Assembly: GCA_017849585.1 (NCBI GenBank)
Contig: JAFIGT010000043.1
Location: 1 to 64,000 of the forward strand
Source of the DNA: Verrucomicrobium sp.
GTDB lineage: Bacteria > Verrucomicrobiota > Verrucomicrobiia > Methylacidiphilales > UBA1321
Direction: 5' to 3'
Length of the DNA stretch: 64,000 nucleotides
Of this stretch, positions 38,922 through 56,856 are shown in pieces. The position numbers were made by a program, and so were the translations under genes. A model generated the notes under the pieces. It ran no database searches and was not told where the DNA came from. It saw only the letters and a program-made list of their open reading frames with translations. The stretch's first letter is position 1. Each line of letters opens with the position of its first letter.

Positions 38922-38929
38922 CTATTAAC
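38922..38929 (-). promoter_or_regulatory. Family B motif (gene at 38918/38912)
   Basis: GTTAATAG on the minus strand, nine bases before the ATG at 38912. It stands back-to-back with the family A motif of the divergent gene at 38963, the only place where both families face each other. Confidence 0.5.
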
Positions 38930-38945
38930 CTAATGCGGAGGACTG

Positions 38946-38956
38946 CCCCGTAGCCT
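38946..38956 (+). promoter_or_regulatory. Family A start-proximal motif (gene at 38963)
   Basis: CCCCGTAGCCT followed by six bases and the ATG at 38963. Confidence 0.75.
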
Positions 38957-38962
38957 CCCTGT

Positions 38963-39418
38963 ATGAACCCAACACCTGCTTCTAAAATCCTCATTCTTCG
39001 TGCTAATTGTCCAAACGAGTTCTCCGGCGTTTCCTATATCACGGTAGAATTTGACGCCAATTTTCCTGCCCGCCTGCGCGAACTTCAAACTCAAGTGCAT
39101 CGGCTCTTCAAACTTTTCCCCTCAGCCTATTATGGCTCCCTTGAAATAGATGCCTCTGCTTTGGGGATGCACTTGCAGGCCTACCAGTGCACTACCGGAC
39201 TGGAAGAAATTCTATCCGCCGCCGGAAGGGACTGGGGCGTTGCAGATGTCATACCGGCAGATAGCGAAGAGTGGCTGACTTCCTGTCACTACCTGAGCGT
39301 AGGCAAAGGGGGCGACTTGTGGGTCAAGCTATTGGCTAAACATTCCAGCGATGTCGCCGAAGCCGAAATTGACTCCGACGTAATTGCGGCTGTTCTCAAT
39401 CAATCAGCCCGTGCCTGA
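38963..39418 (+). CDS. Hypothetical protein, 151 residues
   Basis: No domain recognised. The N-terminal half is beta-like (ISYRF-type strands such as VSYITVEFDANFPARLRELQ), followed by a helical acidic part. The start is supported by the motif six bases upstream. The stop is followed directly by an A-run and a hairpin that is a terminator for the opposite strand. Confidence 0.65.
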   Translation: MNPTPASKILILRANCPNEFSGVSYITVEFDANFPARLRELQTQVHRLFKLFPSAYYGSLEIDASALGMHLQAYQCTTGLEEILSAAGRDWGVADVIPADSEEWLTSCHYLSVGKGGDLWVKLLAKHSSDVAEAEIDSDVIAAVLNQSARA

Positions 39419-39449
39419 AAAAAAGGGATCGGGCGACTCACCCGATCCC
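39419..39449 (-). terminator. Intrinsic terminator for leftward transcription
   Basis: GGGATCGGG-cgactca-CCCGATCCC is a perfect 9-bp stem. On the minus strand it is followed by a run of seven T, the form of a Rho-independent terminator. No minus-strand protein gene ends here, so it points to a transcript from the structured region to its right. Confidence 0.65.
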
Positions 39450-39800
39450 TCACACCTGGCTGCAATAGCGCGCGCGTTAGTTGCCCACAGCCGTTCCGAT
39501 CCTACGTTGCGGGTGACTCACCAGCAAGGCTGAAACTCTCCGGAGTTATACTGATACCGCTCCGGGCTGAACCGGTTCCCGCGTTCACCAGGATACCGAA
39601 TGGGAGATCGTGGAACGACATTCCGCGGCCGGCCAGAAGCCTGGAGAATCCCGATCGTTCCAGGCTGAAGCAATCACGAAAGGACGCTGGACGGGGAGTC
39701 CGCCGATCCCATTCGCCGCCGAATCTTCGCTCTTTTTGAAGAGCGGCGGCGAATGGGATCGGCGGTTCAAGTAGCGGAAGGTATAGGATGTGGCGCTACC
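39425..39800 (-). ncRNA. Candidate structured non-coding RNA
   Basis: This GC-rich stretch has no convincing ORF but many inverted repeats, and it ends at the leftward terminator. The main feature is a 21-bp perfect stem (39700-39720 with 39745-39765) capped by a second helix. The strand is chosen because the terminator T-run lies on the minus strand. The 5' end is not defined. I do not recognise a known RNA family; RNase P, tmRNA and 6S landmarks were not seen. An origin of transfer or replication is an alternative. Confidence 0.4.
39700..39765. repeat. 21-bp perfect inverted repeat with capped hairpin
   Basis: The arms 39700-39720 and 39745-39765 are exact reverse complements (beginning CCGCCGATCCC). 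A further 7-bp helix (39728-39734 with 39739-39745) closes the loop, leaving a 7-base bulge. Perfect arms of this length are under selection or recent. Confidence 0.8.
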
Positions 39801-40460
39801 CCAGACTCTTGCGCCCGCTCTCCAAGATGTACACGTTATCCCTGAATGGACACGCACCGCAGGCAGCAATTATTCATTAAAAAGATCTCGCTTAGTCAAC
39901 GCAGTGAATACTTTTTTCCGCAGCTGCAATTCCTTCAAAATGAATTCATTACACTCCGAAAAACCGATATGCGAAACGCACCATGTGTTCACGTGCATTT
40001 TCAAGGGTTGACGCTAATAGCAGTTAATTTTGACCTACAGCTACATCCGAATTTTGAATTTTTTCGCTCCATTTTTTCATCCTCTCCTGCAATGGGAAAG
40101 GAGCCGTATAAATCCGCTTATATTCAAGACAAGGACGGAGGGGAGGAGCTGAAATAACTACAGCATCAAAGGCGGCATGTCATCTTTCCGAGAAGATGGT
40201 CTGTTTGAAAATTGACCTCGGCATCGCCTGAAAAGATAGTCGTGAACGCAATATCATCGCTATAACTTTCAGAGCTTGTTCTCGACGCTCAAAGCATCTT
40301 CAGTTTATTTCTTCCATTCTCCTTCCCATCGGCAACTTCCTTTGAGACATCTACCAGATCATGGTTATTTCCTGGTAATCGTAGGCAGGAGTCATCTCAT
40401 GAGGAAGCTGGAATGAAGCTTGGATAAAGCTGGAATGGCATCCACACTTCGTTCCGACTT
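39801..40460. other. Intergenic region, no supported gene
   Basis: An ORF of 103 codons (39846-40157, +) is present but has no start-proximal motif, good ribosome-binding site or recognisable domain. The rest, to the stop of the minus-strand gene at 40461, is AT-richer and shows no clear repeat. Confidence 0.4.
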
Positions 40461-41195
40461 TCATCGGTTTGAGGTAAACGCGATCACACCGGATTGAGTG
40501 ACCGTCGTCCAGGCGCTATCAGCGTCCGGCATGATGAGTTGCCATTGGTTACCATCAGTTTTAAGGGTAATGGTTTTGCCAATGGAATTGAGTTTTCTAA
40601 AGGCCTCCGCGTTAGTCTCCGCCCTCTGGTTGACCTTCGCAATTTCAATGCGAATTTTATCTTCGCAATACCTGTTCATCAGGATGGCGATACCGCCGGT
40701 GCAAAGCATAACCGCAATCAGAACGAAGGCAGCAATGTTACTCAAGCGCCATTGTCTCTGGAATTTTGCCATGGATTGAACCGACCCTTTGGCCGTCGTA
40801 ACGAGATTGGAAAAATCTCCAACGGTTCTTGTCGTCACTTCACCAGCTTGTGCGATACTACGGCGGACCGTCTCCGCATTTCCGGCAATGGTGGAAGCAA
40901 TCTGCCTCAATTCGATGACGCTGGTTTGGATGGACTTTTCGCTCAGCGCCATTTCGGCGTGAATATTGCCAAACATTCTTCGCAACTCTTTTCGTTCTGC
41001 AATCAGTTCGGTGGGAATTTGACGGGTGATGAGAGTAAGAACACCCATGGCCTGGCAAACCCGCAACACTTCATCATCGGGCGGCAATTGCCTCAGATAA
41101 GCGGCCAAGCTCCAAAAAGCAGACAAATGCGATTCCGGTACGTAAACCGAAATTTCGGAGAATAGATCCCGGTCGGAGCTGGAGCTTGGCATCAT
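40461..41195 (-). CDS. Membrane protein next to the ParA-like ATPase
   Basis: The 244-residue protein has a long helical cytoplasmic part (coiled-coil-like ALSEKSIQTSVIELRQIAS) and one transmembrane helix near 155-177 (NIAAFVLIAVMLCTGGIAIL). A short beta-like C-terminal domain ends it. No family recognised; mobilisation operons often have such a protein after a ParA/MobD-like ATPase. It overlaps the upstream ATPase gene by 4 bases. Confidence 0.65.
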   Translation of the reverse strand: MMPSSSSDRDLFSEISVYVPESHLSAFWSLAAYLRQLPPDDEVLRVCQAMGVLTLITRQIPTELIAERKELRRMFGNIHAEMALSEKSIQTSVIELRQIASTIAGNAETVRRSIAQAGEVTTRTVGDFSNLVTTAKGSVQSMAKFQRQWRLSNIAAFVLIAVMLCTGGIAILMNRYCEDKIRIEIAKVNQRAETNAEAFRKLNSIGKTITLKTDGNQWQLIMPDADSAWTTVTQSGVIAFTSNR

Positions 41196-41914
41196 GGGAG
41201 GAAGCTGTCCTTGATTTTTTCAAACTCAGAAAACAGTTGTCGCCGATAGGCTTGGGCCCGGATAACGTGGCTGGATTTAGCCAGTTCAGGAAGGGAGGAC
41301 TGACGTTGCGCCACCGCGCTGAGCGTGATGCCGTAGTTGCGTATGGCATGTTGCAATTCTGGCAAGCGCGACTGCATGCGGATTTCTTGCGGTTGAAAGA
41401 TCCTGCGGAAAGCTTGAGCTTCTGCTGTATTTTCCCAATACGCAAATGGAACTGCGCCATATTCGTGCTTATTCAGAACAATGACATACGATACACGATC
41501 CTGAAGTTGTGCAGCCCATGACAGAACGCTCTCTACACTGGCCGGATCGCTGGTGACCAACCCTACCGCTGTAAATGTGAGGATGTCCGCCACATTCTCG
41601 TACATATTTTCAAACCACTGGCTGGCCACTTTCCCGCTGCTCGATCCCAAGTCAGCGAGAATAATCCGCGCATCCTGATCTGCGTAATCAATGAACGCGT
41701 CAAGTCCAGCCGGTGTATTAATGTCTATTTTTTGCGCCGATTCCGGGAAGAAATGACTGAAACTGCCTTTACTTTTGTTTTCAGTGTCCATGTCTAGGTG
41801 CTGGCACGGAATCTGATGTTCGATGAACCATTCGGCCAGGGTGGTTAGAAAAGTGGTCTTACCGGTGCCACCTTTGCCGCCGATGGTGAATATGACTTTT
41901 TTAGATGTGGACAT
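41192..41914 (-). CDS. ParA/MinD-like ATPase (MobD/TraL-like)
   Basis: The 240-residue protein has the deviant Walker A GGKGGTGKTT at residues 12-21, DMDTENKSKGS as the A-prime region, and IILADLGSSSG as Walker B. It is closer to mobilisation/conjugation ATPases (IncP TraL, MobD) than to partition ParA because no N-terminal DNA-binding domain or ParB partner is present. It is the middle gene of a three-gene minus-strand unit with the HTH protein upstream. Confidence 0.82.
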   Translation of the reverse strand: MSTSKKVIFTIGGKGGTGKTTFLTTLAEWFIEHQIPCQHLDMDTENKSKGSFSHFFPESAQKIDINTPAGLDAFIDYADQDARIILADLGSSSGKVASQWFENMYENVADILTFTAVGLVTSDPASVESVLSWAAQLQDRVSYVIVLNKHEYGAVPFAYWENTAEAQAFRRIFQPQEIRMQSRLPELQHAIRNYGITLSAVAQRQSSLPELAKSSHVIRAQAYRRQLFSEFEKIKDSFLP

Positions 41915-41926
41915 AATAAGGTTCTT

Positions 41927-42289
41927 TTAGGGTTTGAAGGTGAGAGGTTTATTCTCGTCGTAAGTAAAAATCTTCGGTGTCTCAAAAGGAGCCTTGGATC
42001 GTTTGAGCTTTTCAATGGCATCGCTTTGGGAAATAGGCCGAACTGGCAAAGGAGTCCGGGAACGCGAAAGGGCAGGCTCAATCATGGTGTAGACAGCCCG
42101 GGGCGGTTTTGAACGCACCTTCACAAAATTATGGATACCGGACGGAGCGGCACTAATACCGTGCTGCTTCAGCAAGATTCGGGAAATCTCTACGAAGCTT
42201 ATGTTTTGTTTTCGCAGGGCAACGATGACTCCGGCTACTGGAACAAGTTTGCTCTGAAACGGTTTTCCGCGTTGTGATGTGAGGGACAT
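41927..42289 (-). CDS. Small helix-turn-helix protein of the mobilisation region
   Basis: The 120-residue basic protein contains VIVALRKQNISFVEISRILLKQHGISAAPSGIHNFVKVRSK, with a helix-turn-helix-like spacing of the sort found in small mobilisation and TraK-type proteins. The C-terminal half is Pro/Lys-rich. A GTTAATAA motif lies 31 bases upstream with a GGAG between, so it leads the unit with the ParA-like gene. Confidence 0.6.
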   Translation of the reverse strand: MSLTSQRGKPFQSKLVPVAGVIVALRKQNISFVEISRILLKQHGISAAPSGIHNFVKVRSKPPRAVYTMIEPALSRSRTPLPVRPISQSDAIEKLKRSKAPFETPKIFTYDENKPLTFKP

Positions 42290-42320
42290 GGTTTGAGTGA
42301 AGCTTTTCGCCTCACTCTCC

Positions 42321-42328
42321 TTATTAAC
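42321..42328 (-). promoter_or_regulatory. Family B motif (mobilisation unit)
   Basis: GTTAATAA on the minus strand, preceded by TGT, 31 bases before the ATG at 42289. AAGGAGAG follows it directly. Confidence 0.55.
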
Positions 42329-42367
42329 ACATCGCTTTTTACGAAACCTAGATGACAGACAGGGTGC

Positions 42368-42868
42368 TTATTGACTCAGTAGAAATTCCACGGCCTTGAG
42401 AATCCCGGCTAGAATTCCTGGGCCAACCAAGGCGGTAAAGAACAGGCCGGGAACCCATCGAGGAATTCTGAACCAGGAAGAAATAGAGTATCGGACCATT
42501 TCCCGAATAATCCATAATCCGAACAGTTGGACCAGGAACAGGATGATAGCGATCAGGCAATCCAGCCGGACATACTCGGTATAGCGACAGTAAAATGGCC
42601 AAATGACAACATTCAGGCACAGCTTCCCAAGCTCATAGGTTGCCAGGGCCAGAAAATAATACCACGCCGCAATCCACGAATACGGAGCCGCCATTTCCTG
42701 ATAATGCGACAACGCCGCGAATCCCCATGCGATCCCCTTGCAGGCGGCGGCTAAAATCAGAACAAAGATACAGCCCTCGCCCAAACCTTCATTGTAATCC
42801 GATGGGGAAGACTTCGCCGGTGGATCAATCAGATTGTCCAGAGGCTTAAAATTGAAAAAATTACCCAT
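42368..42868 (-). CDS. Membrane protein of the transfer region
   Basis: About 166 residues with three or four hydrophobic segments (FVLILAAACKGIAWGFAAL, WYYFLALATYEL, LIAIILFLVQLFGLWII, VPGLFFTALVGPGILAGIL). The start MGNFFNFKPLDNL at 42868 is chosen because a family A motif ends ten bases upstream; the longer ORF reads through it. Comparable small membrane proteins (TraP-like) occur in I-type transfer regions. Confidence 0.6.
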   Translation of the reverse strand: MGNFFNFKPLDNLIDPPAKSSPSDYNEGLGEGCIFVLILAAACKGIAWGFAALSHYQEMAAPYSWIAAWYYFLALATYELGKLCLNVVIWPFYCRYTEYVRLDCLIAIILFLVQLFGLWIIREMVRYSISSWFRIPRWVPGLFFTALVGPGILAGILKAVEFLLSQ

Positions 42869-42878
42869 AGTATGGCCT

Positions 42879-42889
42879 AGACTACGGGG
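42879..42889 (-). promoter_or_regulatory. Family A motif (gene at 42868)
   Basis: CCCCGTAGTCT on the minus strand, ten bases before the ATG at 42868. It is one of two family A sites inside the transfer region. Confidence 0.65.
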
Positions 42890-42955
42890 GATCATTTATT
42901 AGCTTGGAGGAGCGGGGACCGACGACAATAAGGTGACGCTGGCTACCTTTACCCA

Positions 42956-44008
42956 TCAACCATAGATGAAGGAATCAACTTGAAAGAGTGTCTCATAATC
43001 TTGCCCGGTCCGTTTGGCAAAGCGGTCTGACAACTCATGGATTCGGTTCTCCATAATCAGGCTTCCCCACCGGGAAAGGTCGTTGCCGCCACGTCCATAC
43101 CCATCTTTCCTCTTCCGGAATACGGCGGCTTGATAGGCGAGCGTCACCGGAGCCAATCCCAGCCTCTGGTTTGCAGTGGGGTTGGGAATTAATTTCTGGG
43201 CTAAAATAAGTTTCAAGCACCGCGCCAGTTGTCGGGTGGCGTCACGCCGGTCGGCTTCCGGGTATTCGTTTAGCAACCGGGACACAGTGCTGGCCACATC
43301 TTCCGCATGCACGGTCGCAAAGACCAGCATGTTCAGGTTTGCCGCCTTGAGCGCGGCCCGAAGCGTCTCGATATGGTTGATCTCTCCGAAAGCCATGACA
43401 TTAACATCCTGCATGAGAGCCAACGCCACTCCCGTGTGATAGTCTTCAATATCGGTTCCCACAACCTGCTGGGTTACCAACGAGCGGTTGCTGGCCAACG
43501 CGTACTCGATCGGATCTTCGAACGTCCGAATATGAAGCGCATTGCTCTGGTTCAGATAATCCAAAGTCGATGCCTGGCTGGTACTTTTCCCCGCACAGGG
43601 GCCGCCCGAATAAAGAACAAGACCCGGAGACGTATCGCAGAGATAATCCATTAAAGCTGGCTCATATCCAAGATCCTTGAGCCGCGGTACGATAGCCGGG
43701 ATAAACCGGAAGGTAATCACCCGTTTACCATTGCTTCGATAGCCAATTGCTCGAATGCGGTAAACTCCATAGGTAAACCCGGATTTCATATTCACCTTGG
43801 ACAGCCCTTCAAAAAGCGACTGATAAAGCAGGTCAAATCCTTCCGTCGCTTCCTTTGCCAAATTCCGGTTCCCCATTTCCCGAAAAGTTCGCACCAGCCG
43901 ATATACCGGTTCCCATCCTTCCACCAAGTGCAAGTCTGTCGCCCCAATCTTGCCGCCCTCCTCCAATAGTCGTGGAAAAAGAGTATCGGATAGATCCGTT
44001 TTGTTCAT
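42956..44008 (-). CDS. DotB/TraJ-like secretion ATPase
   Basis: The 350-residue protein is a hexameric PilT/VirB11-superfamily ATPase of the kind that powers type IVB (Dot/Icm, I-type) systems. Walker A is SGGPCAGKST, followed by TFEDPIEYAL (Asp box), AFGEINHIETLRAALKAANL (Walker B) and VFATVHAEDV (His box). Both the Walker A loop and the GEINHIET box differ slightly from the usual GPTGSGKST and GEIRD. The gene is divergent from the VirB6-like gene, with mirrored family B motifs between them. Confidence 0.87.
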   Translation of the reverse strand: MNKTDLSDTLFPRLLEEGGKIGATDLHLVEGWEPVYRLVRTFREMGNRNLAKEATEGFDLLYQSLFEGLSKVNMKSGFTYGVYRIRAIGYRSNGKRVITFRFIPAIVPRLKDLGYEPALMDYLCDTSPGLVLYSGGPCAGKSTSQASTLDYLNQSNALHIRTFEDPIEYALASNRSLVTQQVVGTDIEDYHTGVALALMQDVNVMAFGEINHIETLRAALKAANLNMLVFATVHAEDVASTVSRLLNEYPEADRRDATRQLARCLKLILAQKLIPNPTANQRLGLAPVTLAYQAAVFRKRKDGYGRGGNDLSRWGSLIMENRIHELSDRFAKRTGQDYETLFQVDSFIYG

Positions 44009-44023
44009 AAAAGAAGCTGATTC

Positions 44024-44031
44024 CTATTAAC
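44024..44031 (-). promoter_or_regulatory. Family B motif (DotB-like ATPase)
   Basis: GTTAATAG on the minus strand, preceded by GTGT, 15 bases before the ATG at 44008. It mirrors the copy at 44061-44068. Confidence 0.6.
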
Positions 44032-44060
44032 ACACCGTCCCGGGGTCTTTGGGTGTGCGT

Positions 44061-44068
44061 GTTAATAG
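44061..44068 (+). promoter_or_regulatory. Family B start-proximal motif (gene at 44076)
   Basis: GTTAATAG, preceded by GCGT, followed by seven bases (AAGGGTC) and the ATG at 44076. Confidence 0.65.
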
Positions 44069-44075: not shown

Positions 44076-45413
44076 ATGACCTGTTTCATGCCTCTTCTCT
44101 TTGCCTCCAGCGGTTCGGGCATCGCCTCCGCCAGTGACCAAATCGTTTCGGGGATTACTCAAGGAAGCGAGGTGCTGCGCCAAACTTCTCTGCAAGTCGT
44201 CAATTCCCTGCTGCCTTTTTGCGTGAACCTCCGAGTAATCATCGGTGGATTTTCGGTAATGTTCGGACGCTCTTCCCTTGCCGAGGAATTAGCAACCATA
44301 ACCCTGCGCGCCCTTCTGGTGTCGGCTCTCGTGTTCTCATCGCTGTATTCTGAGATCATCGGTTCAGCCGCAACCAAGATGGCCAATGCCGGAAGGCAAT
44401 TAAGCCCTCAAATTATGAATGCCATGGGTGCCCCGGGATCTTCCGCGGAACCGATCGATTACTGGTGCGATTGGATCAATGGAAAAGATAACGGCGGCAA
44501 ACCAAGGTTCGGATACGACTACATTTCCACTAAGATCATCAATGCGAAATCCATGGTTCAGGAAGCCCAGCAAGCCCTTTCCAGGGTTGGAAGCAGTAAA
44601 GACCAGACAACTGCCGCTACCGATCGCGTTCAAACCGATAGCTCTGTCTCTGGTACGATGGTCAAGGTGCTCGGATTTCTCTTTGGAGGAGCCATGATCG
44701 CGGTGGCTATCGCCTTCGCCTGGCTCACTGCTGGCCTGACCGGGGCGATGGCTGCCATCGGGTGCATCGTCTTGGCTGCTTTCTCTTTTTTGGGCGGCTA
44801 CATAGGCACTCAGATGCTCTACTATCTGATCTATGCCCTAGGCATCGCCGTGATGCCGCTGTGCGTATTCGACCGGTTCAAGGATTTGTGGCTCCATTGG
44901 ATTTTCTATCTGATCGGCACACTGCTGGCCGTTTTCTTGTTCTACGTTTTCAATGCATTTGGCTTTGGACTGATTTCGCTCATCACAACCCATATCTTTG
45001 AGAGTGGATTGCTTTCCACGATTCTTGGTCAGGCTGCTTCCAGTGTCCTGACCTCGATGTTCCCGGTTATTTCGGAGGCATTCCAAAAATTGGGCCTGGG
45101 AAATGGCCAGGACATTCTCTTGGCGATGTTTCCCGTCGCCATTTGGCTGGGTGGGATTGCCATCGTATCGGCATTGGTGGCGGGAGGATTAACATTGGGT
45201 GGCGTTGGGATTGCTGTCGGGCTTTCATGGCAACGGGCCTTCACCCATGAGGGAGTATTGGAAACGATCACCCGTCTCTTCCAAGGACTTCAGGGAGGAG
45301 TTTCCACCATGATGGGAGCATTGGCCAACAGGACGGTTCAGGCGGGGGCCGAAATGGGACGCGGGGCGTTCTCTCTGTTCCGCGGCGCAGGAAAGTTGTT
45401 TTTGAAAAAATAA
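44076..45413 (+). CDS. VirB6/TrbL-like polytopic inner-membrane protein
   Basis: About 446 residues: a signal-like N terminus (MTCFMPLLFASSGSGIASAS), a hydrophobic pair around 40-95, a soluble loop, then six or so long helices between about 200 and 400 (MIAVAIAFAWLTAGLTGAMAAIGCIVLAAFSF and following). It ends with a basic tail. This is the plan of VirB6/TrbL inner-membrane channel proteins. The start is the ATG at 44076, seven bases after the motif; an earlier in-frame start runs through it. Confidence 0.75.
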   Translation: MTCFMPLLFASSGSGIASASDQIVSGITQGSEVLRQTSLQVVNSLLPFCVNLRVIIGGFSVMFGRSSLAEELATITLRALLVSALVFSSLYSEIIGSAATKMANAGRQLSPQIMNAMGAPGSSAEPIDYWCDWINGKDNGGKPRFGYDYISTKIINAKSMVQEAQQALSRVGSSKDQTTAATDRVQTDSSVSGTMVKVLGFLFGGAMIAVAIAFAWLTAGLTGAMAAIGCIVLAAFSFLGGYIGTQMLYYLIYALGIAVMPLCVFDRFKDLWLHWIFYLIGTLLAVFLFYVFNAFGFGLISLITTHIFESGLLSTILGQAASSVLTSMFPVISEAFQKLGLGNGQDILLAMFPVAIWLGGIAIVSALVAGGLTLGGVGIAVGLSWQRAFTHEGVLETITRLFQGLQGGVSTMMGALANRTVQAGAEMGRGAFSLFRGAGKLFLKK

Positions 45414-45442: not shown

Positions 45443-45766
45443 ATGAACACAAATAAACTAAGTGCATTACTGATAGTGGTTCTGGGCATCGTTTTGACTA
45501 GTTGCGGTTCCAATTCCGCTCCAACCGGAACTTGGGAGTACAAGGAGACCACTTCCCGCACGACGATGATGATTGAATCAGATGGGGTGGTAACGATGGA
45601 CGTTAAATTCACCGACACACCGAGCTTAAACACCCACAATACGACCAAGTATAGGGAGTTTAAAAACAACCGGCTCGTATTTGAAAATGGCCGGGTCTGG
45701 ACTTACGTTCCACAAAGTCGGGAATTCATCGCTCCGGATGGAGTCCACTTTATCAAGGTAGAATAG
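45443..45766 (+). CDS. Small lipoprotein
   Basis: The 107-residue precursor has a signal peptide ending in the lipobox LTSC (Cys at about 21). A beta-rich soluble domain follows, with GTWEYKETTSRTTMMIESDGVVTMDVKF. No family recognised. It could be an entry-exclusion or outer-membrane protein of the element; this is guesswork from location. Confidence 0.7.
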   Translation: MNTNKLSALLIVVLGIVLTSCGSNSAPTGTWEYKETTSRTTMMIESDGVVTMDVKFTDTPSLNTHNTTKYREFKNNRLVFENGRVWTYVPQSREFIAPDGVHFIKVE

Positions 45767-45780: not shown

Positions 45781-46962
45781 TTAATTCCGAGTGATTCCCC
45801 GTCCCTGATCCCAATCTCTTTTCGACCGATATGGGGGGCGCTCTAGAAAATCGCCGGCAATAGAGGCTTTGGCCATGTCACGCGCGGTTAGTGCGTCTTT
45901 TGTCGCCGCCACTCTCCCGGTTTTAATAGCGATGGCATGGCATATCTGGCCCAGTGCATCCAGCATCATCGCCGGCGCAAATTCGTATTTCAGGGCTGAT
46001 TCCCCAATAATGGGCAAAAGGTCACCCCAAGTCGGAGCCAATACCTTGAAAAAAATGGGACGGTCATCTTTGGTCAGGACAAGGCCGCCCTGCTCATCTT
46101 TCACGCAACGATATTCAAACATCGGTTCACCATCCGTTAGGTTCCGAAGACGTTTTTTGACCGCATTCCACGTTCCTCCAGTCGAGTTGGCTTGAAGGCG
46201 GATATTCTTTACCTCCTCGATTCCCGATTGGGCTTGAGCATAAAAATTCCACTTTTTGGGAATGCCTGCGGGAACTAGCTGGCGCAAGAGGCGCATGGAA
46301 ACATCCCGCGCATTGGCATATTCTTCGAGCAGAATTTTCCTTACCGCCACGCTCTTCCCAAATTGCTGCGCTTTTTCCCTGAGTCGAAATTCCAGATGTT
46401 GAACCGCATTCTCGCGGGCTACCTTGAGCTTGCCTGAATCTTTCTTCAACTCCTTGAAACGTTCGCTTCCCACCCTATTGCTAACAATGAGATCCACCGC
46501 TGTAGCAAAGTGCTTCCCTTGTGGCGTCAGGCGAATTCTTTTTCCGTTCGCTAATTCCGCAATTCGTTTCCTTTCGTTTCCAAAGGCCGCAATCAATGCC
46601 GGTGAATCTAAATTCAAAAGTTGGATCATCATTTCCGCATGCACCGCCCGCTCACCAAGGATCTGCGACGCTTCAATCCACGCCGCCGATGCCGCCGGGC
46701 TGAACCGCTTCCCATCCGCAACATCGGTAGCCGCTTTGGCTGAAAGATTGGAAAGCTCGTCTTTGACCTCAGGAGAAAAGCTGATTGCATTCTCGGCACC
46801 GTGTATGAGTCCCTCGATCAACTCCTGACGCTTGTCCCATTCCAAAACATTCAGAGGGACGCCAAAAGCAACGAAGTCCGTTGGGGTTTTCAACAGATAA
46901 TCGAGCTTTCCAGAACTGGCCTGAGAAAATAAGGACTGGGGCGGGGTATAGTGGAGGCTCAT
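45781..46962 (-). CDS. Hypothetical protein of the transfer region, 393 residues
   Basis: Soluble, largely helical and basic (RENAVQHLEFRLREKAQQFGK), no signal or membrane segment, no recognised domain. The start at 46962 is supported by a family B motif 8 bases upstream and AGGAAGG. Expression from the same promoter family as the secretion genes suggests a transfer function, perhaps cytoplasmic DNA processing. Confidence 0.65.
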   Translation of the reverse strand: MSLHYTPPQSLFSQASSGKLDYLLKTPTDFVAFGVPLNVLEWDKRQELIEGLIHGAENAISFSPEVKDELSNLSAKAATDVADGKRFSPAASAAWIEASQILGERAVHAEMMIQLLNLDSPALIAAFGNERKRIAELANGKRIRLTPQGKHFATAVDLIVSNRVGSERFKELKKDSGKLKVARENAVQHLEFRLREKAQQFGKSVAVRKILLEEYANARDVSMRLLRQLVPAGIPKKWNFYAQAQSGIEEVKNIRLQANSTGGTWNAVKKRLRNLTDGEPMFEYRCVKDEQGGLVLTKDDRPIFFKVLAPTWGDLLPIIGESALKYEFAPAMMLDALGQICHAIAIKTGRVAATKDALTARDMAKASIAGDFLERPPYRSKRDWDQGRGITRN

Positions 46963-46970: not shown

Positions 46971-46978
46971 CTATTAAC
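46971..46978 (-). promoter_or_regulatory. Family B start-proximal motif (gene at 46962)
   Basis: GTTAATAG on the minus strand, eight bases before the ATG at 46962. Confidence 0.65.
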
Positions 46979-47073: not shown

Positions 47074-47081
47074 CTTAATTG
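47074..47081 (+). promoter_or_regulatory. Family B start-proximal motif (gene at 47089)
   Basis: CTTAATTG followed by GAAAGGC (seven bases) and the ATG at 47089; nearly identical to the arrangement at 52248-52263. Confidence 0.65.
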
Positions 47082-49000: not shown

Positions 49001-50593
49001 TCAAAAACTCTGCCCAGCTTTGATATTCGAATCCACCACAAGTAATTCATTTTCTATAAAGACTTGAATCGGGACATTTTGCTGAGCACCAGATATGGCC
49101 GCCCCAACCCTCTGGGCCGCGCTGGCGGCTACGGACGCTTTCTCACCCGCCACGCGATCAGATCGCAGTTGAAGGCTTTTCAACCGCTCCTGTAGCAATC
49201 GCTCCTGCTCTCTTTCAATTTCGGAAACGAAGTTCTGACGCGTGGCCAATTCTTTTTGCAATTCCAGCAATAACTGGGTGATTTGAGGGAGGACTTCAGT
49301 GTCCTGCTGGCTGGACCGGATCTGCTGGGCCTCCTCGATCATTTTCTGAAGTTGCTCCATCAGGTCGCGGTTGTACGAGAGTAAATCCTGATTGCGGCGA
49401 TACTGAGTCATGTTGGCTTTGAGCTGCACGTCGCTGACAGAAATATCCTTGTTGTAAGCATCTGCCTGGGCCTTCGTAGGGCCAATAACCGCCACGATCT
49501 GCGGAGTCCCCGATCCTGTCCCGCATAATAAATAGCCTGAGCCAGCCATCAAGCCGCTCAATGTTTCGACCGGAAATTTTAACGCGGGTATCGAACCGGA
49601 TTGGATCGTAGGCTGATTGCTGTCCGGCGCTATTCCTTGAGCTTGGGCATCCACCATCGTTTGAGTGATAACCAATGCGGAACCGGGGATTGTCTGTGAC
49701 AGAGCCGAAACCGCATAAGGCAGCATGCTGGTAGCGAATGTCGAGTACGCGTTGCTTCCTGAACTCCCGCTGCTGGACTGATAATTCGACACGGCATTGT
49801 AGGCTCCAGAGGAGAGGACATCGTTCAAATTTGCAATGCCACTGAGTGGAATAGTGTAATTTCCCGATCCCAACACTGGATTATACGAGCTGGATGTTGA
49901 TGCCAGAAAACTCACCAATGTTGCCGGATTGGTCTGCCCCTGAACCCATGCATACGCATCATCCGCGCCTCCTTGGTAGGCTCGCACAAATACGCCGTCG
50001 CCCGCTGTCATTTGACCAAGCGTGCCAGCCAGTGCCTTGACTGCGGATAGAACAGACGAGTTGGTAGAGGCTCCGCCCAAGAATGTTTGCGCGGCTCCCT
50101 GCAGCAATTGCGAACCCATCTGCTGAGCAAACGAAGTGAGCAAATTTCCTGTCGATTGTGACAGCGGCACCAATTGATACGGCAACGCTCGGTCCATGGC
50201 AATGGGCGTACCAGAAGATCCAATCAAATTGTCGATATACCCATAGTTAGCGCCCTGTAAGTTTTGACCGTTGTAACTAAGATCCGTCGCTGATTCCGAT
50301 TGGGTCCGACCATTGGGCGCTTTCTTAAGAAGCTGGCCATATTTTTCGAGGGAAATTTGCTTGGCCATCAAAGAAGCAATTTTATGGTCCCCATCGACAT
50401 ATTTGCGAAGTGTTTCAATGTCGGGCTGAATTTTGTCGTTGGTGAGTTTCCTCAAATCGTCCAGATCCTGTTTGACCTTATCGGCCCATTCCTTGCCACT
50501 CGCGGCAAAGCCATCCACCGTGACCGGTTTTCCCGCCCAACAATTCAGGGTAACAACCCATAACGCGCCTACACAAATTACTATTTTGTTCAT
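49001..50593 (-). CDS. Exported transfer protein with coiled-coil tail
   Basis: The start is the ATG at 50593 (MNKIVICVGALWVVTLNCWAG, a signal peptide), seven bases after GTTAATAA. About 530 residues follow: a helical N-terminal part (VKQDLDDLRKLTNDKIQPDIETL), a Ser/Gly/Gln-rich low-complexity centre, and a coiled-coil end (LLLELQKELATRQNFVSEIEREQERLLQERL). It has the layout of periplasmic or pilus-associated T4SS proteins but no family match I can name. Confidence 0.65.
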   Translation of the reverse strand: MNKIVICVGALWVVTLNCWAGKPVTVDGFAASGKEWADKVKQDLDDLRKLTNDKIQPDIETLRKYVDGDHKIASLMAKQISLEKYGQLLKKAPNGRTQSESATDLSYNGQNLQGANYGYIDNLIGSSGTPIAMDRALPYQLVPLSQSTGNLLTSFAQQMGSQLLQGAAQTFLGGASTNSSVLSAVKALAGTLGQMTAGDGVFVRAYQGGADDAYAWVQGQTNPATLVSFLASTSSSYNPVLGSGNYTIPLSGIANLNDVLSSGAYNAVSNYQSSSGSSGSNAYSTFATSMLPYAVSALSQTIPGSALVITQTMVDAQAQGIAPDSNQPTIQSGSIPALKFPVETLSGLMAGSGYLLCGTGSGTPQIVAVIGPTKAQADAYNKDISVSDVQLKANMTQYRRNQDLLSYNRDLMEQLQKMIEEAQQIRSSQQDTEVLPQITQLLLELQKELATRQNFVSEIEREQERLLQERLKSLQLRSDRVAGEKASVAASAAQRVGAAISGAQQNVPIQVFIENELLVVDSNIKAGQSF

Positions 50594-50600: not shown

Positions 50601-50608
50601 TTATTAAC
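50601..50608 (-). promoter_or_regulatory. Family B start-proximal motif (gene at 50593)
   Basis: GTTAATAA on the minus strand, seven bases before the ATG at 50593. Confidence 0.6.
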
Positions 50609-50613
50609 CCACG

Positions 50614-52185
50614 CTATTTTTTCTGAACTTCCGGCACCTTTTGGAGTAGCGCGTCCAAACGCATCTTCATGAACAAACCCTTGGTTTGCGCGACTTGGGA
50701 ATAATGCTTTCCATGCCACTCATATTCGGGATTCTGGGCGGGAGACGGCAACATGCTGGCTTGCATTAAAATAGGAACATACGTCCGCTCGGAGGGTCTC
50801 CAATAGCACTGGCCCACACGCAATTGATTGATCGCGTCAGGCGTTACCTTGCGGCATTCAATCAATTTTTCTGTTACGACCCCGGTTTCCTCCCCTTCAT
50901 TTTCCACGTCGGCACCGATGATTGTTGCCGTCCGCGAAAGTTTGCTTTTTGAACCGGAGAGGTTGGAAAACCAGACTGCCGTCTCATAGGACTGCGGATT
51001 GAACAAAAATACGTTCGGAGTGCTCACCTGAACCTGTTTGGCAAATGTCGCTGACACCTGCTCCAGATCGGCCAATCCTTGCAGTCCGATATGGAGCCGA
51101 AACCCTGAACTGCGGGCCTTGCAGATCCAGTCCGCCATTCCCTTATCAATGAAACTTCCAGCCTCATCCACAATCACATCAACCACGCGCCGCTCGGATG
51201 GTGACACCGACTGGTAATGATTGGACAGGGCGGAAAGCTGATTGATCAGGATATTGCCCAATGTCGCCATGGCCACGGGTTGACTCTGCACAGGAAACCC
51301 AAAATAGACGGTGGCATTCGAATGATACAGTTGATCAAGTTCGATGTCGGGGTTGTAGGAATTTACCGACCAATGCTGGAGTAACTTCAAATGATTGAGG
51401 AACCCGCTCATAATGGCGGTAAACTCCTTTAGATTCTTGTTACGTTCGGCCAGAACGCGGGAGTAAGGCTCCTTCCCTTCAGGTCGAAGCTCGGTTCCAA
51501 GCTGATTTAGAAGAATGGGATTTTCGAGAAGCAATACAATGTCCTCGAAATTGTATCCAAGCCCACTGGCATGCAGCGCACGGCACAAGCTTGAAAAAAT
51601 GGTTCTCTGGTAATCCGTATAGTACGAACCATCCGTGCGCTCAGATGCAGGCCGATGCCGGCTATAAGTCGCAAAAATGGCTGAGGAAATGGTATCGACG
51701 GATAGTTTGGTCGAATGCAGGGGATTCCAGCTCTGGGACAGTTGATCAAGATCCTGCAAAGGAAAGTTGGCGTAGAACGGGCAACCGGCCTTGAGGCTGT
51801 TGTAATAGTACAGCTTGTTCCAGGTGGTCTGATCGGCTTTCCCATCGATGAAAATCACCAATCGCCCCTTGCGCGCTCCGGAGTAAGCCAGCGACAGGAG
51901 CAATTCCGTTTTTCCACAACCTGTGGTCCCGACAAATATCGAAGGACGGGACCGTACCGAATCATGGCAGAAAATCGGTGCAATAGCTCCTAACAAGCTT
52001 TGTCCGAGATAGGTATAGGCAAATCGCCGCGAATCTACAGGCGGCGTGTGGGTAATCAACGAGACTTCCTCGCTTCTCCGACCCACGACACAGTACAACG
52101 CCACTACCAAAACAACTCCCGCTGAGACGAAACAGAAAAAGAACACCGCTAGTTGGAGAAATGTCAGATTAAAGCCCCAGAGCAT
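50614..52185 (-). CDS. VirD4/TraD-like type IV coupling protein
   Basis: About 523 residues. An N-terminal transmembrane helix (FLQLAVFFFCFVSAGVVLVVALYCVV) precedes a P-loop ATPase: Walker A GTTGCGKTELLLSL and Walker B-like VVDVIVDEAGSFID, then GFRLHIGLQGLADLEQV. It would link the DNA-relaxase complex to the channel. I start it at 52185 (MLWGFNLTFLQ), eight bases after a family B motif; the longer ORF reads through the motif. It resembles the TraD/DotL side of the family. Confidence 0.85.
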   Translation of the reverse strand: MLWGFNLTFLQLAVFFFCFVSAGVVLVVALYCVVGRRSEEVSLITHTPPVDSRRFAYTYLGQSLLGAIAPIFCHDSVRSRPSIFVGTTGCGKTELLLSLAYSGARKGRLVIFIDGKADQTTWNKLYYYNSLKAGCPFYANFPLQDLDQLSQSWNPLHSTKLSVDTISSAIFATYSRHRPASERTDGSYYTDYQRTIFSSLCRALHASGLGYNFEDIVLLLENPILLNQLGTELRPEGKEPYSRVLAERNKNLKEFTAIMSGFLNHLKLLQHWSVNSYNPDIELDQLYHSNATVYFGFPVQSQPVAMATLGNILINQLSALSNHYQSVSPSERRVVDVIVDEAGSFIDKGMADWICKARSSGFRLHIGLQGLADLEQVSATFAKQVQVSTPNVFLFNPQSYETAVWFSNLSGSKSKLSRTATIIGADVENEGEETGVVTEKLIECRKVTPDAINQLRVGQCYWRPSERTYVPILMQASMLPSPAQNPEYEWHGKHYSQVAQTKGLFMKMRLDALLQKVPEVQKK

Positions 52186-52193
52186 ACTACCTA

Positions 52194-52201
52194 CTATTAA
52201 G
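52194..52201 (-). promoter_or_regulatory. Family B start-proximal motif (coupling protein)
   Basis: CTTAATAG on the minus strand, eight bases before the ATG at 52185. Confidence 0.65.
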
Positions 52202-52247
52202 CTATTACCGGCGCACTGAGCCGAGGACACCTGTGCCCTCTCAATAG

Positions 52248-52255
52248 CTCAATTG
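52248..52255 (+). promoter_or_regulatory. Family B start-proximal motif (gene at 52263)
   Basis: CTCAATTG followed by AAAGGGC (seven bases) and the ATG at 52263. Confidence 0.6.
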
Positions 52256-52262
52256 AAAGGGC

Positions 52263-53858
52263 ATGAGCCATGCCCTCGACAATTTGCGACACCACTTTGG
52301 TGATGATGGAGCCAGCGTATTTAGGAACCCGGCCCACCGAGTCAACCGAGCCGCACGGGTCGTTACAGCCATCCTCATCGAAAACAAGCTGGCGTGGGAG
52401 TATCTCTCCCCTGGCGAAGTGGAAACGATGCTCGACGGCGCTCCCCATGCTTTGGACACAGCGGAGAAAAAGCTATTACGCGGCGTGAAATCATTTTCCG
52501 AACTGAAGCAAGTGATTCCTATGCTGGAAACTTCACTTGGCCCCAAGTTACTCGCATTTGCCGACTATCACACCGTTATTACCGCCGAAGGCGAAAAACC
52601 TCGGACGATCGATTGGCAAGTAGAATTGCCTGACGAGGAATTGTCCATTATCGCCACAATGTACCAGATGGGGCGCTGGCCTTCCCTTTCCCGGAAAGAC
52701 TATGATTTTGACTCGCTGCGGGAAAACATCATTCAAAACGCAGCCATCTGGTGCAGCGCACAGGCTGCCAGGAAGGACTGGAATAAGGCCCTGCTTCCAC
52801 TCGGCCTTCAGGCGCTTCTTGCCATTCCGAAAGCGACCAATGGACGCCGGCTTCGGGCCTCGTTCGCGGAAAGCTACCGGTTGAGCATCCCTTACCAACA
52901 ATCTGAAGAGTCCCTCCAGGCTTATGTCCGGAAACTGCCCCAGATTCAGTTCATCACCCGTCGGCATAGTTCCATGCTCAAAAAATTTCCCGATCAGTCC
53001 CTCGCCCTTTCCACCGCCCTTGATGGATATGCAAAGGGATGGGAGCGATTCACCCCCCTTCGTCTTAAGAAAGATAAACTGATGAATGCTTCCATCGTAA
53101 AAGCCATCGACGAATCCATTTGGGGTGAACTGAAAAGACACGAGAGAAAGCAACTTGGCATTTATGTCTCCGAGGATTGTTGGGTGCTGGCAGAAAGCCT
53201 TCGCACGGCGGCCGCCAAGAAAATGCAGGAAGGTTTATCCTGGGAAGAAAGCGTAAATATCGCCATCCGGGAACTCCCTGATTCCAAAAAGAAACAGGGC
53301 AATTTTGAGGCCGCTTGCCGTTTGGCCATTAAAAATGCCGAAGTTCTGTCTCCAACCGCCTACGACATTACCCCCCATTCTGAGTTAAACGCCATCAAAG
53401 GAGGAAATGTTGAAACTACACGAGCCACCGAGATAAATCTTGAGAGCACAACAGAAACTCCCGATTTCATCCTCGATCCTTTCACCGTTGCCTTGGCCGC
53501 CTCCCGCCTCCATCGTGAAATCGAAAATATGCTGGAGGTAATTAGCGATGGACCGGTGATGGGACTGAACGCTCTCCGCACCCAGCTTGCCAAACCCCAA
53601 CACCCCATTTCCAGTGAAGCGGTCAAAGCCTTGGAATCCTTTTTAGAACAGAATGCTCATCCCAAAATGCTCCAAGTCTTCCGGGCTGTTCAACGATCAT
53701 TCAAAGCGGCTCCGGTTTCCCTTGATATTCCCCCCGTAGCCGAATTGCTGGCGCGTCCGACGGCGCGCCGGGCTGCCGCTGCACAGATAGCTTCCCATCT
53801 GCTTGAACATGCAGAGCGTATCGCGCCGTATCTGGAACAAAGCCATTCCCTGATTTAG
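52263..53858 (+). CDS. Hypothetical protein of the transfer region, 531 residues
   Basis: Large soluble helical protein without signal, membrane segment or P-loop, so it is not a VirB4 ATPase. The middle has several Tyr/Arg-rich segments (FAESYRLSIPYQQ, YVRKLPQIQFITRRHSSMLKKF). The C-terminal 120 residues are Ala-rich helices. No relaxase His-triad seen. Its divergence from the coupling protein under mirrored motifs suggests a partner in DNA processing. Confidence 0.65.
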   Translation: MSHALDNLRHHFGDDGASVFRNPAHRVNRAARVVTAILIENKLAWEYLSPGEVETMLDGAPHALDTAEKKLLRGVKSFSELKQVIPMLETSLGPKLLAFADYHTVITAEGEKPRTIDWQVELPDEELSIIATMYQMGRWPSLSRKDYDFDSLRENIIQNAAIWCSAQAARKDWNKALLPLGLQALLAIPKATNGRRLRASFAESYRLSIPYQQSEESLQAYVRKLPQIQFITRRHSSMLKKFPDQSLALSTALDGYAKGWERFTPLRLKKDKLMNASIVKAIDESIWGELKRHERKQLGIYVSEDCWVLAESLRTAAAKKMQEGLSWEESVNIAIRELPDSKKKQGNFEAACRLAIKNAEVLSPTAYDITPHSELNAIKGGNVETTRATEINLESTTETPDFILDPFTVALAASRLHREIENMLEVISDGPVMGLNALRTQLAKPQHPISSEAVKALESFLEQNAHPKMLQVFRAVQRSFKAAPVSLDIPPVAELLARPTARRAAAAQIASHLLEHAERIAPYLEQSHSLI

Positions 53859-53875
53859 CGGAAAATAAAAAGGGA

Positions 53876-53895
53876 GGTGGCGATTTCTCGCCACC
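53876..53895 (+). terminator. Hairpin after the 531-residue gene
   Basis: GGTGGCGA-tttc-TCGCCACC is a perfect 8-bp stem with a 4-base loop, 17 bases after the stop. An A-rich run precedes and a pyrimidine-rich stretch follows, giving a plausible bidirectional terminator. Confidence 0.6.
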
Positions 53896-53952
53896 CCGGT
53901 ATCGCTTCTCCTTTCTGTCAGTTTGTGACTACTGATCTATCCATCGTTGATA

Positions 53953-53960
53953 GTATTAAC
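53953..53960 (-). promoter_or_regulatory. Orphan family B-like motif
   Basis: GTTAATAC on the minus strand, preceded by GTGT as at 44024-44031. No minus-strand gene begins after it; it is mirrored by the motif at 53994-54001, so it may be part of a two-site operator or an antisense promoter. Confidence 0.4.
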
Positions 53961-53993
53961 ACACGGTTTTTGACCGTCTCTCCAGAGCGATGG

Positions 53994-54001
53994 GTTAATT
54001 G
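53994..54001 (+). promoter_or_regulatory. Family B start-proximal motif (DotI-like gene)
   Basis: GTTAATTG followed by five bases and the GTG at 54007. Confidence 0.55.
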
Positions 54002-54006
54002 TACTT

Positions 54007-54741
54007 GTGACTCCACCACAAGCTAAACCACGCGATTGGGATACCACCCATTATCCCTCACAGCCCCGATCTGTCATTGGAATGGGCCTCGATATGGCCC
54101 GCGTTGCCCAGGCGCTCTCCATAATTACCGCTGCTCAAGGCGTGGTAATTCTCGCGCTTGGACTTGCCGTAAGCAACTTGGCCTTGCGTCCTCCCGTCGT
54201 ACTGGATCAAAACGATGGCTACGTCATGTGGAGAACGACCGAATTCTTCAAACTACGACCGGATAACATCCGGTCCTTTTGCCGGATTTACCTCGGAACA
54301 CTGTTTACGGTTAGCCCCGGCTCCTACGACATCGCTCCGGCATTGCCCCTCATGACCACAAAACTGGCCAAGCTCTACCGGGAGCAACGTCCGGATGACG
54401 CTATCGTAAACTCGAATCAACGCCGGATTTTTATTTTATCAGATGCGCGGCGGTGGAGCGATCCCGAGTTCCCCAGCATCGTCTGCATCGCCGCCCGCGG
54501 AGAAAGGGCTTTGTACGAAGTGACACCCAATGCCCAACAATCCTTCAAAATCGAAAGCAGCTATGTGGTCTACCTTCTGTACGTCAAAAATATCCCTCCG
54601 ACTCCAGAAAATCCCTGGGGGCTGCTCGTACATGGGTTCAAAACACTTGAAGGACAGGACGCTGATCGTGTTTGGAACGAAGCGATACCGCTTCAAGTGG
54701 AAGAAGAATCCCCGGCGAAAAAGAAGGAAAAATCCAAATGA
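54007..54741 (+). CDS. DotI/IcmL/TraM-like inner-membrane protein
   Basis: The 244-residue protein has one N-terminal transmembrane helix (about 36-62, ALSIITAAQGVVILALGLAV). A VirB8-like periplasmic domain follows (WRTTEFFKLRPDNIRSFCRIYLGTLFTVSPGSYD). This is the plan of DotI/IcmL and I-type TraM. The following genes are the matching DotH- and DotG-like partners in the same order as in Dot/Icm and IncI systems. The tail is Lys-rich. It overlaps the next gene by 4 bases. Confidence 0.75.
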   Translation: MTPPQAKPRDWDTTHYPSQPRSVIGMGLDMARVAQALSIITAAQGVVILALGLAVSNLALRPPVVLDQNDGYVMWRTTEFFKLRPDNIRSFCRIYLGTLFTVSPGSYDIAPALPLMTTKLAKLYREQRPDDAIVNSNQRRIFILSDARRWSDPEFPSIVCIAARGERALYEVTPNAQQSFKIESSYVVYLLYVKNIPPTPENPWGLLVHGFKTLEGQDADRVWNEAIPLQVEEESPAKKKEKSK

Positions 54742-55643
54742 AGCGGACCCTTGCCGTTTTGTTTTTGATTTCCGCGTCCTGCCCGGCCCAAGTTTTTGAT
54801 GTTTCTCCACCACCTCCCGTGGCTCCTGGACTGGGCCAGGGTCGGGATACAAAAATTACCGTTCCGCCTCCACCCCTTATCATTAATGGGAAAAAGGACA
54901 AGGATCTCACCGATGACGAACGACGTGAGTTTTTGCAGGAGAAAATCAAAACACTCGATCAGGAGGACATCCAAATCGAAACCATCAATGTGGCTCCGGG
55001 TTATCCCGTCACATTACGGTTTACCGAACCAATCCAGGATTTTTCCGTTGGTGATAAAGGATTGGTTTCCGTGCAAAGCAAAGGACGCGTAGCCGAGATC
55101 GCCGCGCTCGCTCCTCAGGGGGATACTCCAGTCAAATTCCTGTTTAGCGGAAACAAAATCCGCCCCTATCACATCTTCGTCGTCGATAGTTTTCTCAAAG
55201 GCGACAGCATTATTTCGATTCAACCTTTCGTGTATGCGACTGCTAGTCAACCGTACAAGGCACCCAGCCAGCGCGATCTGACGGCATTCATCAAGATTAT
55301 CGCCAACTATGACGCGTTGCTCGTTAACAAGCGCCTCGATTCAAGAAAAATCAGGCGGACTCCAATTTTTAAGAAAAATCCGGCAACGGGATTTACGCTC
55401 TACTACCTTTATCAAATCAACGGCGCGCTCGCCTATACCTTCGCCTATAATAACTTCTCCGAAACGCGCGTCCGCTTCGATGAATCCCGTCTCCGCCTTC
55501 AAGTCGGTCACGGCAAGTTCATCCCGGATTACGTGGCATTCACCGATCCCCTTCTCGATCCTCACGCCACAACCACCGGCTACCTCATTGTTTTTAATCC
55601 CGCCTTTACCCTCAACCTCCCCGTTGAAGTGATCTGGAATTGA
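54738..55643 (+). CDS. DotH/IcmK/TraN-like (VirB9-like) core-complex protein
   Basis: The start is the ATG at 54738, overlapping the upstream stop. A signal peptide (MKRTLAVLFLISASCPAQ) and a Pro-rich stretch precede a VirB9-like beta domain with INVAPGYPVTLRFTEPIQDFSVGDKGLVSV, as in DotH. The C-terminal half continues with beta strands (TLYYLYQINGALAYTFAYN). It would form the outer-membrane ring with the DotG-like protein and lipoproteins. Confidence 0.75.
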   Translation: MKRTLAVLFLISASCPAQVFDVSPPPPVAPGLGQGRDTKITVPPPPLIINGKKDKDLTDDERREFLQEKIKTLDQEDIQIETINVAPGYPVTLRFTEPIQDFSVGDKGLVSVQSKGRVAEIAALAPQGDTPVKFLFSGNKIRPYHIFVVDSFLKGDSIISIQPFVYATASQPYKAPSQRDLTAFIKIIANYDALLVNKRLDSRKIRRTPIFKKNPATGFTLYYLYQINGALAYTFAYNNFSETRVRFDESRLRLQVGHGKFIPDYVAFTDPLLDPHATTTGYLIVFNPAFTLNLPVEVIWN

Positions 55644-55654
55644 TCCATCCATTT

Positions 55655-56836
55655 ATGGCCGTTACCCCAAAAAAGATCATCGCCGGAATCGGTCTTCTCC
55701 TGATCGCTAGTGGACTCGTAGGTTCTGTCGTTTGGCTCATCAAATCCAATGGAGCACAACGCGCCCAAAAACTCTATCTCCAGCAATTGGCGAAAAAAGG
55801 TCCCGTTCAGGCTCTTCAAAAAACGAATTCTAAGGACAATGTTTCAGAGCAGGACACCGAAAAGCAGGGCGAAACTTCGTCTCCAGAGACAAACGAAACC
55901 AATAACCCCAAGGCTGGCATCGTGAATGTTCCGCCCGCAAAGAGCGTGCAAGCAGTCAAAGAAGCCAATGAAAATGTCCCCTCGGCTTTCAAGGCCCCAT
56001 CAAACTCCTCGAAAAATACCGCTCCTATTTCTTCGGAAATAAACGAAACTCTTCCTGTCCCCAATGAAACGCTCAATCCTTCCCGCCCCGGCCAGGAGGA
56101 ATCAAAAGGGACCACCTACCTCACTCCATCGAAGGTGTATCCTTCCGAGAGATTCCTTTTTCGCAATCTCTCCAAGACAGCCCTGGATGGCAAAAACTGG
56201 GATGGAGGGGACAGTAAAGGACCCAATATCAATGTGGAGACTTTTACACCCCAAGGCAGCGAAATCAACTTGGTTCTCCTGAATAATCTCGCATCCAATA
56301 ATCTTGAACTCGAAGTCATCGCGGGTGTTTGGTTTCCCTTGTACTGGAACGGGCATCTCTTGCTGCGCCCCGGAGACAGGATTTTGGGCAAAGCGACTGC
56401 TGGAAAAAATCGGGATCGGATTTTGGTCAACTTTTACAAGGTGGTCCTTAAGGATGGCAAAACACTTCCTCTTCAATCGGTAGCCCTGCACACGGATGGC
56501 ACGATGGGTATCAAGGGTTACACGGTTGGAAACGTGTTTCTTCAAAACATTGGTCCACTCCTGACCGATTTTGCCAGCGCGGCAATGGCGGCCTATACCC
56601 AACGCTCGCAAAGCACCCTGACGATTGGAGACGTCTCTGTTCAATCCGATCAGGCGAATGCTTCCGTCCAAAACGCGGCCCTCCAAGGAGGCCAAAAAGC
56701 ATTTCAACGGCTCACCCAGCTTCTGCTCGAAGAGGCTGAGGACAACCGCCCATACATTTTCGTTCCGGCGGGAACCCGTTGCAAAGCTTACCTCCAGCAA
56801 TATATGGACGTTTCGGTAGCCGATTACGGCAAGTGA
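55655..56836 (+). CDS. DotG/IcmE/TraO-like (VirB10-like) core-complex protein
   Basis: A short cytoplasmic start and a transmembrane helix (KKIIAGIGLLLIASGLVGSVVWLI) are followed by a Ser/Asn/Glu-rich linker of about 140 residues. A VirB10/TrbI C-terminal domain follows, with PLYWNGHLLLRPGDRILGKATAGKNRDRILV, and a final VPAGTRCKAYLQQYMDV. It spans both membranes and would sense energy for substrate passage. The ATG at 55655 is preferred; a TTG at 55640 overlapping the previous stop is possible. Confidence 0.82.
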   Translation: MAVTPKKIIAGIGLLLIASGLVGSVVWLIKSNGAQRAQKLYLQQLAKKGPVQALQKTNSKDNVSEQDTEKQGETSSPETNETNNPKAGIVNVPPAKSVQAVKEANENVPSAFKAPSNSSKNTAPISSEINETLPVPNETLNPSRPGQEESKGTTYLTPSKVYPSERFLFRNLSKTALDGKNWDGGDSKGPNINVETFTPQGSEINLVLLNNLASNNLELEVIAGVWFPLYWNGHLLLRPGDRILGKATAGKNRDRILVNFYKVVLKDGKTLPLQSVALHTDGTMGIKGYTVGNVFLQNIGPLLTDFASAAMAAYTQRSQSTLTIGDVSVQSDQANASVQNAALQGGQKAFQRLTQLLLEEAEDNRPYIFVPAGTRCKAYLQQYMDVSVADYGK

Positions 56837-56848
56837 GATTTCGCGCAT

Positions 56849-56856
56849 GTTAATAG
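56849..56856 (+). promoter_or_regulatory. Family B motif (lipoprotein at 56873)
   Basis: GTTAATAG, 16 bases before the ATG at 56873, with GAGGA in between. Confidence 0.6.

Follow-up and report, generated by a model that had tools for sequence, protein, structure and literature searches.

A start-adjacent motif at transfer genes of a probable verrucomicrobial integrative conjugative element and a candidate sigma factor to read it

Phage T4 encodes a sigma factor, gp55, that reads late promoters made of a short 8-bp −10-like box with no −35. SetCD of the SXT/R391 integrative conjugative elements (ICEs) is an FlhDC-like activator and not a sigma factor. Encoded by the element, it activates numerous transfer promoters on that ICE (PMC4344509). 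In Tn1549-family streptococcal ICEs, as described in the parts of the source considered here, the conjugation module always comes with a sigma gene, which was proposed as transfer regulator and is presented there without a promoter class (PMC4701971). Leaderless genes of Deinococcus-Thermus carry a −10 motif, TANNNT, a few bases upstream of the open reading frame (ORF) (PMC12340547). No defined promoter regulon for an ICE-encoded sigma factor was found in the literature searched, ICE sigma genes themselves having already been noted.

We analysed a 64,000-nucleotide stretch of a Verrucomicrobium sp. assembly (GCA_017849585.1, contig JAFIGT010000043.1; hereafter the window) together with a second contig of the same genome, C3. 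In a large mobile element, a short motif (motif B) fronts about 26 genes, among them those for the two halves of the DNA-transfer machine and for a sigma factor. Like gp55 and the T4 late promoters, the proposed system would pair a mobile element's sigma factor with a short −10-like box without a −35, but motif B differs in sequence and no coactivator is known for its system. The candidate reader of motif B is a sigma factor, unlike SetCD. As in the SXT/R391 regulon, the element's own factor is proposed to activate its transfer promoters (PMC4344509). A sigma gene within the conjugation module recalls the Tn1549-family ICEs, as portrayed in those parts of the source, a likeness in gene presence (PMC4701971). 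With the Deinococcus-Thermus TANNNT genes, motif B would have in common a start-adjacent promoter core, constrained spacing and independence from a ribosome-binding site; that pattern, however, is genome-wide in its host and read by the housekeeping sigma, whereas motif B differs in sequence and is restricted to a single mobile element (PMC12340547).

Probable extent of the element across two contigs

The window encodes most parts of a type IV secretion system (T4SS), next to an integrase and an attachment site:

42956-44008, minus strand: VirB11-like ATPase (T2SSE, PF00437)
44076-45413, plus strand: VirB6-like membrane protein, with distant likeness to a T4SS-locus gene of genome G051 (21% identity, E 6e-6)
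50614-52185, minus strand: VirD4-like coupling protein (TrwB_AAD_bind, TraG-D_C)
54007-57604, plus strand: VirB8-like, VirB9-like, VirB10 (TrbI, PF03743) and VirB7-like genes, whose homologues form one block near VirB4 in genome G035
58291-59562, minus strand: tyrosine integrase (PF00589)
59641-59665, plus strand: attR, a 25-bp tRNA-Asp 3' fragment adjoining the integrase

VirB4 was not found in the window; a VirB4-like protein and small membrane proteins are encoded on C3, and the pair that marks a conjugative T4SS is divided, with the coupling protein in the window and the VirB4-like protein on C3. In G035, homologues of the window and C3 T4SS sets share one 16-kb block. The sole other genomic copy of the attR sequence is an intact tRNA-Asp at C3:49458-49534, in direct orientation, where G+C steps down from 57.7% to 51.4%; the window up to 59640 has 50.8%. 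Because the tRNA-Asp attachment site is common to both contigs, G+C steps down there and homologues of the complementary T4SS parts occur together in G035, a single integrative conjugative element, no smaller than 141 kb (3% of the genome), most likely spans the window and C3, across a likely contig join. The left end of an IS3-like element closes C3 and its right end opens the window, with no matching target duplication (the IS3 assignment is our reading of the ends). No relaxase family was matched among the element proteins scanned. Another contig, C17, was rejected as a missing middle piece: it has the same IS at its end, but chromosomal G+C and no motif core.

The inferred element also holds respiratory nitrate reductase-like and haem-synthesis-like blocks (206-15501), identified by sequence reading alone and apparently cargo, and a DpdA-like protein (35936-36679; PF23859, deazapurine in DNA) near a WGR/DNA-ligase-like gene (36852-38006). 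Past attR, G+C stays at about 52% for about 9 kb (59670-64000 and L094:1-5000) before rising to the chromosomal 57%, which may point to a further island adjoining the element.

Start-adjacent motifs and their confinement to the element

The first-pass annotation of the window had listed eleven positions of a motif said to mark the transfer genes, and the motif or a close variant was present at all eleven. From 26 aligned sites in the window and C3, the consensus of motif B is C-N-R-T-R-K-GTTAATAR-N-A, followed mostly by the start codon. The window sites, with one further motif B-like site and the sites of a second motif (motif A, CCCCGTAGYCT), are:

38922-38929, minus strand: motif B GTTAATAG, before 38451-38918 (minus), head to head with motif A at 38946
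42321-42328, minus strand: motif B GTTAATAA, 31 nt before gene 41927-42289, in an operon with ParA-like 41192-41914
44024-44031, minus strand: motif B GTTAATAG, before the VirB11-like ATPase gene, ATG at 15 nt; divergent to 44061
44061-44068, plus strand: motif B GTTAATAG, before the VirB6-like gene, ATG at 7 nt
46971-46978, minus strand: motif B GTTAATAG, before 45781-46962, ATG at 8 nt
47074-47081, plus strand: motif B variant CTTAATTG, before a 70-aa ORF, ATG at 7 nt
50601-50608, minus strand: motif B GTTAATAA, before the VirB5-like gene 49001-50593, ATG at 7 nt
52194-52201, minus strand: motif B CTTAATAG, before the VirD4-like coupling protein gene, ATG at 8 nt
52248-52255, plus strand: motif B variant CTCAATTG, before 52263-53858, ATG at 7 nt
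53953-53960, minus strand: motif B-like GTTAATAC, without a gene; divergent to 53994
53994-54001, plus strand: motif B GTTAATTG, before the VirB8-9-10-like operon, GTG at 5 nt
56849-56856, plus strand: motif B GTTAATAG, before the VirB7-like lipoprotein gene, ATG at 16 nt
38946-38956, plus strand: motif A CCCCGTAGCCT, an example of the second putative promoter class
26453, 30262, 31063, 31106, 33775, 34112, 35165, 35605, 36882, 42879 and 45426: other motif A sites

The exact octamer GTTAATAG accounts for five of the listed positions (38922 minus, 44024 minus, 44061 plus, 46971 minus, 56849 plus), and the degenerate form STTAATWG has 11 copies in the window against 5.4 expected, a number reached in none of 100 shuffles. 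The annotated spacing of mostly 7-8 bases to the start codon held for six of the eleven positions (44061, 46971, 47074, 50601, 52194, 52248) but not for the others, where the distance is 5 nt (53994), 3 or 9 nt (38922), 15 nt (44024), 16 nt (56849) and 31 nt (42321). In a slightly revised set of 26 sites, the start codon follows at 3-10 nt in 20, and at six of the 26 a substantial ORF is more distant or absent. The bases before the start codon are often purine-rich, as had been claimed, and alignment column +9 is A at 20 of the 26 sites. At C3:121337-121411, motif B is followed after 7 nt by a short ORF and then a GspF-like gene.

Motif B has a single orientation relative to its gene and stands at the head of the transcription unit; overlapping genes, such as those at 54672 and 55640, lack it. 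Seven divergent pairs were found, four in the window (44031/44061, 46978/47074, 52201/52248, 53960/53994) and three on C3 (95570/95686, 106497/106545, 121411/121453). Motif discovery upstream of element genes, a check proposed in the first pass, recovered both motifs, CCCCGTAGTCT and TGnGTTAATAnnAA, as its top results without a seed when run on 103 element gene starts chosen by us among the ORF starts.

Motif B does head most of the transfer genes: the VirB11-, VirB6-, VirB5-, VirD4-, VirB8- and VirB7-like genes in the window, and on C3 the VirB4/pilin-like operon and type II secretion/type IV pilus genes. Motif A lies mostly 6-8 nt before the start and is start-adjacent to the same degree; of 11 exact copies genome-wide, ten fall within the window and one on C3 (62025). 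It heads PRTRC and accessory genes, the role assigned to it earlier, but also 42368-42895 and 45443-45766 inside the transfer region, and the two motifs meet head to head at 38922/38946 and C3:62035/62079. Two start-adjacent motif classes, both nearly restricted to the element, are supported; of the proposed two regulons with different promoter types, the classes stand while the functional split is not clean. A second protein with a weak sigma region 2 is encoded within the element (C3:53358-54341, L129:13358-14341), 3' of a T2SSE-type ATPase gene, and is a possible reader of motif A, as a lead only.

The core octamer also occurs elsewhere in the genome (32 exact copies of GTTAATAG in 4.79 Mb), which would fit motif B as a chance occurrence or as a ribosome-binding or promoter context that is common in the host. 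Against this, motif B is concentrated in 3% of the genome and is start-proximal only there. Outside the window and the C3 part, 1 of 21 octamer copies is followed at 5-10 nt by an ATG that begins an ORF no shorter than 40 codons, while all six copies on C3 have an ATG 6-9 nt downstream (at C3:121404 it opens only a short ORF); these six are a fair replication test, because C3 was not seen in the first pass. The extended pattern TRNGTTAATAR has 23 genome copies, 16 of them in the element (5 in the window, 11 on C3 at 62-131 kb), a count that is partly circular since the pattern was derived from the sites themselves; both genome-wide counts are pattern matches and not weight-matrix scores. A weight matrix at 12 bits gave 19.9 sites per 100 kb in the element versus 1.8 in host sequence (225 kb, part of it chosen for containing the octamer). 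Start-proximal hexamers in the window's element part were CCCCGT (p 2e-11) and TTAATA (p 3e-7) and on C3 GTTAAT (p 3e-7), under an assumption of independent hexamers, and none of comparable rank was found in three host segments or the window's left part. Genome counts, start-proximity and weight matrix all contradict a host ribosome-binding context, the refutation that the annotation itself had named; motif B is real and reaches beyond the window, and a common host context or chance is extremely improbable.

A candidate promoter class and its likely sigma factor

We assign the product of C3:95736-96590 to the sigma-70 family as a divergent member. It matches Pfam Sigma70_r2 (PF04542) above the cut-off (E 2e-6; 2.2e-6), with region 2 present, and aligns with RpoS over residues 19-248 (E 2e-10). 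For regions 3-4, that alignment reaches residue 248, with no Pfam region-4 match and low pLDDT there. The structure model is confident for region 2 only; the significant Foldseek matches of this low-confidence model were, with one exception, sigma chains, the best being sigma factors. No sigma gene was found within the window, in the element part of its contig C24 (phmmer, six-frame ORFs; PF04542 over the genome). A motif-B site (C3:95686) lies 42 nt before the start of the sigma ORF, with AGGAGG between, and a weaker opposite-strand site (C3:95570) serves the operon leading to VirB4. An additional ATG, out of frame with sigma, occurs 8 nt past the sigma gene's motif B.

We consider it reasonably probable that motif B forms the −10-like core of an element-private promoter class, near-leaderless and read by the element's sigma. 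Motif B is likely a promoter, and the spacing (3-10 nt at 20 of 26 sites) is compatible with leaderless genes; RNA synthesis would begin only a few bases from the start codon, and the resulting mRNAs would be near-leaderless. Upstream of motif B, only one site has a TATAAT-like −10 (5/6 match) against 2.9 expected, rarer than chance; since there is no such upstream −10 and no room before the start codon, motif B itself is the best −10 candidate. Position two of the extended −10 register is T in the GTTAATAR core, where a sigma-70 −10 needs A, and the core is therefore not a normal sigma-70 −10. No −35 box was found at motif-B sites.

Confinement to the element and divergent pairs would fit any dedicated regulator equally well, and genes of the element include one for a response-regulator receiver protein. 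Motif B could accordingly be an operator or promoter element bound by the element's own DNA-binding activator or repressor, in the manner of SetCD in SXT/R391, while an ordinary promoter is read by the host's RNA polymerase. We regard this as unlikely, although worth keeping in view, because 5-10 nt to the start codon leaves no room for a downstream −10, upstream TATAAT-like hexamers are fewer than chance, and the core is asymmetric with one orientation to its gene. The short, rather uniform spacing to the start codon and the purine-rich bases between would suit a site working in mRNA, for translation initiation or an RNA-binding protein of the element. This appears quite improbable: overlapping internal genes lack motif B while divergent pairs have it, and the sigma gene, which has its separate AGGAGG, and four further sites show distances of 15-42 nt.

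For the private promoter class, the sigma-70-family factor on C3 is the likely reader of motif B. With motif B at its gene head, back to back with the VirB4-leading operon, the sigma would amplify its own expression and then turn on the transfer regulon, so that the private promoter type probably switches on the element's own transfer. Short AAGG/GGAG-type runs occur at half of the motif-B sites, and some of these mRNAs may accordingly have short leaders. Shine-Dalgarno matches of at least 4 nt were counted at 8 of 21 motif-B starts, none of 11 motif-A starts and 32 of 86 other genes (including the window's left part), with 21-23% in controls; the motif-B counts are compatible with leaderless and short-leader mRNAs alike. 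A point against the model is that the sigma gene is on another contig, across an inferred join at an IS copy without a matching target duplication. If true, a private promoter class would keep the transfer genes silent until the element's sigma is made, in any host. Sequence alone here yields a testable regulon of about 26 sites and a sigma that is a candidate to read the promoter of its own gene.

Sigma homologues and boxes at related loci

Sigma homologues occur at VirB4/T4SS loci in five related genomes (G023, G030, G035, G041 and G051). The related T4SS locus of G030 (contig C159, L125+L131) has its own sigma homologue and a start-adjacent box, CCTATN-N8-ATG: there are 13 CCTATN-like sites ahead of start codons, with nine at 8-9 nt, and the start-proximal hexamer CCTATT has p 4.5e-9. 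A different box at the same place in a different locus supports a locus-specific reader, for which the sigma is a candidate, and makes sigma-promoter co-evolution testable. There may be a family of conjugation-dedicated sigmas beside VirB4, each co-evolving with its own box (GTTAATAR; CCTATN in G030) and giving near-leaderless transfer mRNAs unread by host sigmas, a generalisation that we put forward tentatively and with some doubt.

Relatives of VirD4 and the sigma were not found in viral contigs, and a plasmid collection held nothing closer than distant VirD4 matches (about 25% identity) and distant sigma matches. Contig C3 of G023 was rejected as a related element, its ATPase having neither a surrounding element nor the motif. 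No start-proximal motif in G041, G051, G021, G013, G085 or G023 was significant after allowing for 4096 hexamers; in G035, the hexamer GGCCTA was borderline, in 3 genes.
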